Shown: piece after piece, positions 1 through 1,777 of the stretch | How the letters are laid out: the number at the start of each line of letters is the position of its first letter | Numbering within the stretch: the first letter of the stretch is position 1 | Origin: Aphelenchoides besseyi | Lineage: Eukaryota; Nematoda; Chromadorea; Rhabditida; Aphelenchoididae | Length of the DNA stretch: 64,000 bases | NCBI GenBank assembly: GCA_024699855.1 | Contig: JAMPIQ010000001.1 | Span: 11,036,001-11,100,000 of the forward strand | Direction of reading: 5' to 3' | The notes under the pieces: generated by a model | Databases searched by the model: none | What the model saw: the letters and a program-made list of their open reading frames with translations, nothing else | What the model was told of the DNA's origin: nothing | Position numbers and translations under genes: made by a program

Positions 1-29
1 CAGTCAAAACTCTCAGACAAACTACTTAC

Positions 30-418
30 TCTCGCTCCTTCGATGATCGCTTCGAATCCCGATCCACACAAACGATTCGTCGTGACGGCCGGCGTCTCAA
101 TCGGAACTTCCACTCGCAGACCGACGGTACGCGCCAAATAAGCGGCATCTTTGGACGATTGAATCACGTTTCCTAAACCAAAACTCAACGATCGGAACCA
201 AAATCGAACTCACCGAAAATCACGTGGTCGATCTTCTCCGGTTTGATTTGCGCGGATCCGATTGCTGCACGAGCCGCATGTTCGGCCAAATCGGTGGCTG
301 TTTTTGACTTTAACGATCCGCCAAAGGTGCCGAATGCCGTTCGTTTGGCGCTAACAATGAAAAGATCTGAAAATACGATGAAGAAACTTCAACGAAACCA
401 CGAACCTTTAGCTCCCAT
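30..418 (-). CDS. 3-ketoacyl-CoA thiolase, N-terminal part (runs off the left edge)
   Basis: Thiolase catalysing the last step of beta-oxidation or acetoacetyl-CoA interconversion. Three exons are visible: 406-418 (start codon), 214-366 and 30-172, with a donor at 29 leading out of the window. The reading frame is continuous across both introns. The N-terminal thiolase fold motif VSAKRTAFGTFGGSL and the active-site cysteine motif NRLCGSGFEAI are present, followed by IIEGA. The spacing resembles the ACAA2 branch (acetyl-CoA acyltransferase 2). No long targeting peptide precedes the conserved core, as in ACAA2, where the N-terminus itself acts as a mitochondrial signal. The gene lies 367 bp downstream of panB on the same strand, so co-transcription is possible but not shown. 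The family is secure; the exact isozyme is inference. Confidence 0.9.
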
Positions 419-784: not shown

Positions 785-1777
785 TCAATGAAACGTGTAC
801 TCATGTGACGGAAAGTCGCCGTTTCGAACCTCGCAAACGAACTGATCAATCGCCGATCGAATCGAATCGCGACCGTTGAGAAAGTTTTTCACGAACTTCG
901 GACGCTTTCCGGGCGTTATTCCCAAAATGTCGTGAATCGGAAAAAACGAATTTAGAGCTTTTCGCTCTTAACTCACCACCAAGACCTGGCCATCGCAATG
1001 AACTCCAGCACCAATGCCGATGGTTGGAATTCGAATCGATTGAGTGATCTGTTGTGCCAGTGTCTAAAAAACCACTTAACGGTTTCCAATAAACTCAAAC
1101 CTCTGGAACACATTCCAAAACCAACAACGAAGCACCGGCTTCTTGAACCTTGAAAACTCGAGTTTACAAGATTTCAAAACGCAAACTCACAGCTAAGGCT
1201 GCTTGACGAATTTGTTCACTTGCATCGCTGCTTTTGCCCTGAACTTTGTAGCCACCTAATGCATGAACGGATTGAGGAGTTAGACCCAAATGTGCACAGA
1301 CGGGAATCGATCTTTCGACCAGAGCGCGAATTGTCGACAAAACCAACGGCGCTGAGCCTTCTAACTTGACCATTGCAGCATTTCCTTCCGACAAGAATCG
1401 AACAGAAGCATTGACTGCCGATTCAACACTCATCAAACTTCGGAATGGCAAATCAGCAATCAGCAACGTGGATTTGAGCGAACGAGAAACCGCCGAGCAA
1501 TGGTAAATGATATCATCGGCCGTAACTGGCAACGTACTCGAGCGACCTAAAGAATAATATCATTAGCTAACAAATTAAACTCTTCACCTTGAATGACCAT
1601 TCCCAATGAGTCACCAACAAGAACCAAGTCGACTCCTGCTTCTTCCATATGATAAGCAAAAGACGAATCGTAAGCGGTTAACATAGTGATCTTTTCCTTT
1701 CGATTTTTCATTTCCAGAAGCCGTGGAACGGTGACCGGTTTTCTCGGCTGCTCACCCTTCTTTCCATCAACATACAT
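785..1777 (-). CDS. panB: 3-methyl-2-oxobutanoate hydroxymethyltransferase (ketopantoate hydroxymethyltransferase)
   Basis: PanB transfers a hydroxymethyl group from 5,10-methylene-tetrahydrofolate to 2-oxoisovalerate, the first committed step of pantothenate (vitamin B5) synthesis. Five exons: 1588-1777, 1191-1546, 1101-1148, 977-1063 and about 785-931. The product is close to the usual 260-280 residues. Visible family motifs in order: LTAYDSSFA and VGDSLGM (metal-binding aspartates), [37 protein letters not shown] (catalytic glutamate), IGIGAG, CDGQVLV, then KRPKFVKNF and the typical EYTFH end. The first three introns are ordinary short GT-AG introns. The last junction (976 to about 932) lacks an AG acceptor: the coding sense resumes at GACATTTTGGG straight after ATTCAC. 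Animals normally lack PanB and obtain pantothenate from diet, so this is a strong horizontal-transfer candidate that has acquired introns. It sits head to tail with the thiolase. Confidence 0.93.

Follow-up and report, generated by a model that had tools for sequence, protein, structure and literature searches.

Animals are generally regarded as incapable of synthesizing vitamin B5. What, then, is a panB gene doing in Aphelenchoides besseyi, a nematode of the Tylenchomorpha (family Aphelenchoididae), where did it come from, and can a full PanB protein still be made from it? The gene lies near one edge of the window analysed here, by which we mean the whole stretch of 64,000 nucleotides at positions 11036001-11100000 of contig C1. 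The answer that we favor, with a probability of about 0.72, is that the nematode would have a working PanB derived from Lysobacterales, which together with a PanC of actinobacterial type would provide a partial or complete route to vitamin B5. Within this explanation, we infer the enzyme activity of PanB, the splicing of its fourth intron and its role in B5 supply from sequence.

Structure of the panB gene

The gene model occupies window positions 1777-785 on the minus strand (C1 11036785-11037777) and runs from ATG to TGA through five exons that encode 277 amino acids (Table 1), exactly where a sequence-only reading of the window had placed it. A profile search of the assembly (47,386,574 bases in 31 contigs), which works exon by exon, gave three exon-level matches to PF02548 in this gene (E 1.6e-41, 8.6e-21 and 1.3e-15). 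These span profile positions 2-54, 48-185 and 183-258 of 259, and hence the full domain. No second panB locus was found by the same profile search of the 47.4 Mb.

Table 1. Features of panB and of the adjoining thiolase gene, in window positions
Feature	Positions	Strand	Basis and remarks
panB exon 1	1588..1777	-	gene model and PF02548 match; ATG at 1777; carries D56
panB intron 1	1547..1587	-	gene model; 41 nt, GT-AG
panB exon 2	1191..1546	-	gene model and PF02548 match (E 1.6e-41); carries D95, K124, E126 and H149
panB intron 2	1149..1190	-	gene model; 42 nt, GT-AG
panB exon 3	1101..1148	-	gene model; carries E194
panB intron 3	1064..1100	-	gene model; 37 nt, GT-AG
panB exon 4	977..1063	-	gene model
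panB intron 4	938..976	-	gene model; 39 nt, GT start and CG end; in-frame TAA within
panB exon 5	785..937	-	gene model; C-terminal part, contains the stop; conservation about that of the other exons
thiolase gene, 5' part	1..418	-	ATG placed at 418; extends beyond the window to about C1 11034906

The predicted protein aligns nearly end to end (residues 9-277) with PanB proteins of solved structure, 1m3u (E 1.2e-80) and 3vav (E 8.9e-88). Residues D56, D95, K124, E126, H149 and E194, which we take to correspond to the metal and active-site positions of the Escherichia coli enzyme, are conserved relative to 1m3u and invariant in an alignment of 13 rows. The sequence-only reading had called the gene complete and its four introns host-like. 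The first claim holds for the five coding exons and their 277 codons, while a complete spliced message is putative, given that intron 4 has no terminal AG; the second holds for introns 1-3, which are GT-AG, but not for intron 4, with its 3' end of CG.

Chromosomal surroundings

The contig that carries panB is 18.1 Mb long, and the flanking genes are, as had been claimed, ordinary animal genes: an HMG-box gene upstream of panB and inside the window, and a thiolase and a nematode cuticle collagen on the other side. The order downstream of panB is thiolase, a THAP4-like domain, the collagen (on the opposite strand), a Gfo/Idh/MocA gene and panC, with a tRNA-Asp after panC; the collagen thus sits between panB and panC. 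The end of the Gfo/Idh/MocA gene and the start of panC are separated by 111 nt (counted by hand), a tight spacing that would suit a nematode operon.

Searches for SL1 RNA gave at least 18 matches when 50 of 10,971 candidates were scored; the best reached 44 bits, below the Rfam cut-off of 75, and at that level the matches are only supportive of a nematode genome. They are clustered at about 4.36-4.86 Mb of C1 and about 0.83-0.91 Mb of contig C2, some as opposite-strand pairs about 440 bases apart. Contig C12 (48,835 bases) is of another kind. It carries long reading frames that are bacterial-looking by eye, presumably for a transporter-like protein, a SAF-domain-like protein and a dehydrogenase, and it looks like a contaminant or an associate of the nematode.

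Bacterial ancestry of panB

Among the best 120 of 8000 scored matches, the closest relatives of the A. besseyi protein are from Aphelenchoides fujianensis (76-77% identity), Ditylenchus destructor (71%), Aphelenchoides bicaudatus (69%) and Aphelenchus avenae (66%), and the nematodes named among the entries of that list and of a precomputed domain list all belong to Aphelenchoides, Aphelenchus or Ditylenchus. Two further proteins are among the same 120: P0006, a metagenome protein that is 70% identical and was counted as nematode by its position in the tree, and P0003 (442 amino acids, with the PanB part repeated), which is 45% identical and was excluded from the trees. The bacterial matches in this best 120 reach 65%, and the named ones belong, going by their names, to Lysobacterales, save P0098, from a Betaproteobacteria metagenome-assembled genome.

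Two trees place the nematode proteins together and within this bacterial order. The first contained 94 of 114 rows after 20 loci were thinned by hand; the 114 include 34 of the 120 listed proteins and leave aside locus L033, whose translation is too short. Its seven nematode rows formed one clade (bootstrap/SH-aLRT 100/99) that grouped with Lysobacterales at 99/99. For the second tree 12 rows were thinned by hand and seven added, giving 89 rows, one of them a rice row cut across two matching pieces. Here nine nematode rows formed one clade at 100/99, and the group that joins this clade to the Lysobacterales rows received 98/99. The identity of the bacterial sister group varies, with Rhodanobacteraceae in that position (86/39) in the 94-row tree and a placement outside both families in the 89-row tree.

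Plants and fungi possess PanB, and a gene that is ancestral to eukaryotes, or that was gained from a plant or a fungus, might be considered in place of a bacterial one. We regard this as very improbable, judging from a tree whose eukaryotic sampling outside the nematodes is confined to plants. The plant sampling of the 89-row tree consists of two rows. Both are placed beside rows of Bacillota and Thermodesulfobacteriota and at a great distance from the nematode clade, which rules out a plant origin as far as those two rows represent plants. One further entry with a plant name, the PanB-PanC protein P0296 labelled Digitaria exilis, groups with Photobacterium and is probably bacterial contamination.

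The relationships within the nematode clade do not follow taxonomy throughout. The D. dipsaci protein adjoins Aphelenchus (90/50), whereas that of D. destructor lies inside Aphelenchoides (a seven-row clade, 100/99), a conflict that makes nematode-to-nematode transfer or a mislabelled contig possible for one row. The D. destructor protein (P0004) is encoded on a contig of only 16 kb, and either contamination or transfer between nematodes is possible for it. In the D. dipsaci model (P0247), PanB is fused to an N-terminal part that is transposase-like by eye, and a few residues are missing where exons 4 and 5 meet in A. besseyi.

Judged by these trees, panB is a bacterial-type gene that entered by an old transfer common to Aphelenchoides, Aphelenchus and Ditylenchus; its presence in several nematodes of the Tylenchomorpha argues for an old acquisition rather than one peculiar to the A. 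besseyi genome. The history that we favor is that an ancestor of the three lineages acquired panB from a bacterium of the Lysobacterales, and that the gene then gained spliceosomal introns and came to be read as an ordinary nematode gene.

The contrary possibility, that the gene reflects bacterial contamination or a chimeric contig, had been thought unlikely in the sequence-only reading, and it now appears scarcely credible, even though the assembly does contain the bacterial-looking C12. The gene has introns, it lies on a contig of 18.1 Mb with animal genes on both sides, the same exons are found in proteins of two A. besseyi lineages (see below), and there are orthologues in other nematodes. 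The grouping of nine nematode rows as one clade inside Lysobacterales is itself difficult to reconcile with contamination. The claim of a bacterial-type panB in an animal chromosome is thus borne out by the contig, the introns, the animal neighbors and the nesting within Lysobacterales, and the protein phylogeny that had been proposed as a check gave this same nesting, away from the two plant rows.

The end of intron 4 and the fate of exon 5

Intron 4 (976-938) starts with GTGAGT and ends with TTTTTTCCG. When 304 GT-AG and GC-AG pairs were tried around it, the GT-CG model retained the top score (1086 versus 1048 for the next best), and the seven AG models that ranked highest among the pairs scored all lose the conserved motif CDGQVLVIHD. 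Retention of the intron would lead to a stop after GQVLVVS.

Exon 5 nevertheless has the appearance of a coding exon. It is open and full-length. Of its 19 columns that do not vary among 14 other rows it keeps 18, compared with 77 of 78 for exons 1-4. Its identity to the A. fujianensis protein P0001 is 74%, the lowest of the five exons (77-94% for the others). The corresponding values are 70% against D. destructor (other exons 70-81%) and 66% against Aphelenchus (other exons 56-88%), and exon 5 ranks lowest only in the comparison with P0001, and not in those with D. destructor, P0006 or Aphelenchus. A conserved exon behind a junction with no standard splice site points to the use of a non-AG site, and the splicing of exon 4 to exon 5 probably uses the CG at the 3' end of intron 4. 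Short introns of Caenorhabditis elegans can be spliced without an AG. Our literature search found no paper in support of such splicing in C. elegans; the passage recovered from PMC11347140 concerns 5' splice sites.

Database annotation of A. besseyi treats this region differently. Three proteins of this species that contain PanB (P0241, 618 amino acids; P0242, 631; P0293, 484) omit exon 5 and continue into the neighboring thiolase. A domain scan found PF02548 plus both thiolase domains in P0241 and P0242, and a precomputed domain list gives the same for P0293. Over exons 1-4, P0241 is identical to our model at 227 of 227 residues, while a second A. besseyi lineage is identical at 214 of 227 (94%); by eye, P0293 agrees with P0242. 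The three entries are perhaps not independent of one another and may come from one annotation pipeline. They bear thiolase names, so that searches for PanB by name miss them, and the gene is easily overlooked for this reason.

Taken at face value, these entries describe a real PanB-thiolase fusion protein, with panB exon 4 spliced directly to the thiolase. We consider such a protein improbable. The junction from panB to thiolase differs, by eye, in each of the three models, and a start codon belonging to the thiolase itself is placed 366 nt beyond the panB stop, with TTTTCAG immediately upstream. A fusion would also discard the C-terminal part, whose coding sequence is still conserved, and gene finders that require an AG would yield exactly this kind of error, in entries that perhaps share a source.

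The main rival to a working gene is that panB is decaying, with the 3' end of intron 4 lost, no full PanB made and exon 5 a remnant. The CG end, the stop that follows if the intron is retained, the absence of exon 5 from the three A. besseyi PanB-bearing proteins found in the database and its lowest rank against P0001 are all in keeping with decay. A remnant would be hard to square, however, with a full-length open exon that retains 18 of its 19 otherwise invariant columns. Furthermore, database models of the second lineage, at 94% identity, also skip exon 5, so that the site is apparently old, and yet exon 5 has drifted little; the C. elegans precedent would provide a way in which such an intron could still be removed. 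On balance we regard decay as unlikely, though less so than any other alternative considered here, and prefer a working gene that is read through an unusual intron.

Since the database models of two A. besseyi lineages both omit exon 5, the odd end of intron 4 probably dates back some way and is unlikely to be an error of assembly, as far as protein entries that may share a pipeline can show. If this intron end is used, it would offer a natural system in which to test splicing in nematodes.

A linked panC gene of different origin

A search of the same genome for panC, which the sequence-only reading had suggested, found the gene 8.5 kb downstream of panB on the same strand (C1 11028256-11027242). 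It is intact, encodes 296 amino acids and is interrupted by three introns (39, 42 and 43 nt), all of them GT-AG. The protein is 100% identical over its 296 residues to A. besseyi P0121, which matches PF02569 over profile positions 2-267 of 268.

The relatives of this PanC are not those of PanB. Named bacteria among the 120 PanC matches listed are Leifsonia, Agromyces, Compostimonas and Microbacterium, which we take to be Microbacteriaceae, with identities up to 55%; PanC from nematodes other than A. besseyi is absent from those 120. The PanC tree holds 101 of 108 rows (seven loci were dropped by hand) and includes 36 of the 120 listed proteins, and its bootstrap was not settled. Two A. besseyi rows, on a long branch, fall with actinobacterial rows (38 rows, 100/98), and the PanC proteins of Lysobacterales form a separate clade (18 rows, 100/96). 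With Lysobacterales as the kin of PanB and actinobacteria as the kin of PanC, panB and panC are, by the evidence of the trees, from two different bacterial donors. A single bacterial panBC operon was considered as the source and is ruled out by these different kin. In bacteria, a panC match lay within the fetched stretch at 67 of 80 panB loci, or at 72 of 85 when five plasmid panC loci are included.

The chance that two genes placed at random would lie this close is about 4 in 10,000 (2 x 8,529 / 47,386,574 = 3.6e-4), a figure of plain arithmetic that assumes random placement and was calculated after the result was known.

A possible route to vitamin B5

The product of panB would most likely form ketopantoate from alpha-ketoisovalerate, itself derived from valine, and methylene-tetrahydrofolate, and PanC would join pantoate to beta-alanine to give vitamin B5. 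Matches to class IV aminotransferases are present in the genome and could supply alpha-ketoisovalerate, and pantothenate kinase (Fumble) has matches at two places. There were no matches to PanD (PF02261) in the exon-by-exon search of the genome; beta-alanine can be obtained in animals from pyrimidine breakdown.

The step between PanB and PanC is the reduction of ketopantoate. Searches for an ApbA-type ketopantoate reductase (PF02558 and PF08546) gave no matches in the genome, in an exon-by-exon search that a gene of small exons could escape. The one KARI_N match (E 1.2e-4, 26.4 bits) is at C12 37791-38066 (locus L020), and KARI was rejected as the missing reductase because this single match is on the contig that looks bacterial by eye. 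The Gfo/Idh/MocA gene that precedes panC, which presumably resembles the animal dihydrodiol dehydrogenase family, was also considered and set aside, specific evidence being absent. With no reductase found, the pathway is not closed. Reduction would have to be carried out by an enzyme outside the families searched, or else its product be taken from plant or fungal food.

A nematode with both PanB and PanC could do more of the B5 path itself. We would put forward only tentatively a fuller version, in which Aphelenchoides makes B5 by a route assembled from two unrelated donors, with panB and panC brought together on one strand at a distance of 8.5 kb, a host reductase that is not known so far to act on ketopantoate and a PanB produced through a standing non-AG intron end. 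If this doubtful but possible version were true, a nematode with such a route would need no dietary B5.

Comparison with known systems

The E. coli panB gene has no introns. Its protein (1m3u) aligns with A. besseyi PanB over nearly the full length and has the same active-site residues, and the PanB proteins of Lysobacterales are closer to the nematode protein than that of E. coli is. The closest counterparts are those of A. fujianensis, A. bicaudatus, Aphelenchus avenae, D. destructor and D. dipsaci, which form one clade with A. besseyi PanB. The models of the other nematodes include the C-terminal part, with a different tail at that end in A. bicaudatus, whereas the A. besseyi gene is hidden in thiolase models. 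The listings and passages recovered by our literature search contained no report of PanB in a nematode.

For PanC, earlier nematode cases are known. Parts of PMC7696266 and PMC3511272 list it among the transferred genes of plant-parasitic nematodes, and according to excerpts of PMC9582021 the PanC of Heterodera schachtii is a bacterial gain of actinobacterial type with introns, located amid nematode genes, and the cyst-nematode protein has been shown to be a working enzyme. The A. besseyi case is similar in that a plant-parasitic nematode carries a bacterial B5 gene with introns and a PanC of actinobacterial type. In the account given in those excerpts (PMC9582021), however, H. schachtii encodes the last B5 step only and the early ones take place in the host plant, whereas A. 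besseyi also has panB, linked to panC.

The closest parallel for a pair of genes comes from arthropods. The relevant passages of PMC7738191 describe the horizontal gain of both panB and panC in Aculops lycopersici and spider mites, and also cite whitefly and nematode cases. As in these mites, a plant-feeding animal has gained both genes; in Aculops, an arthropod, the same passages give panB and panC as separate loci (aculy01g38350 and aculy04g02470), whereas in A. besseyi they are linked. The panB gene described here thus joins the B-vitamin genes gained by plant-feeding animals, and the occurrence of PanB and PanC in a nematode bears on how and when plant-associated animals escape a vitamin requirement. 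Four points go beyond the sequence-only reading, namely the unusual end of intron 4, the nearby panC with its other origin, the spread through Tylenchomorpha and the missing reductase, and what sets A. besseyi apart among the known cases is the linked panB/panC pair from two donors together with the odd intron 4.
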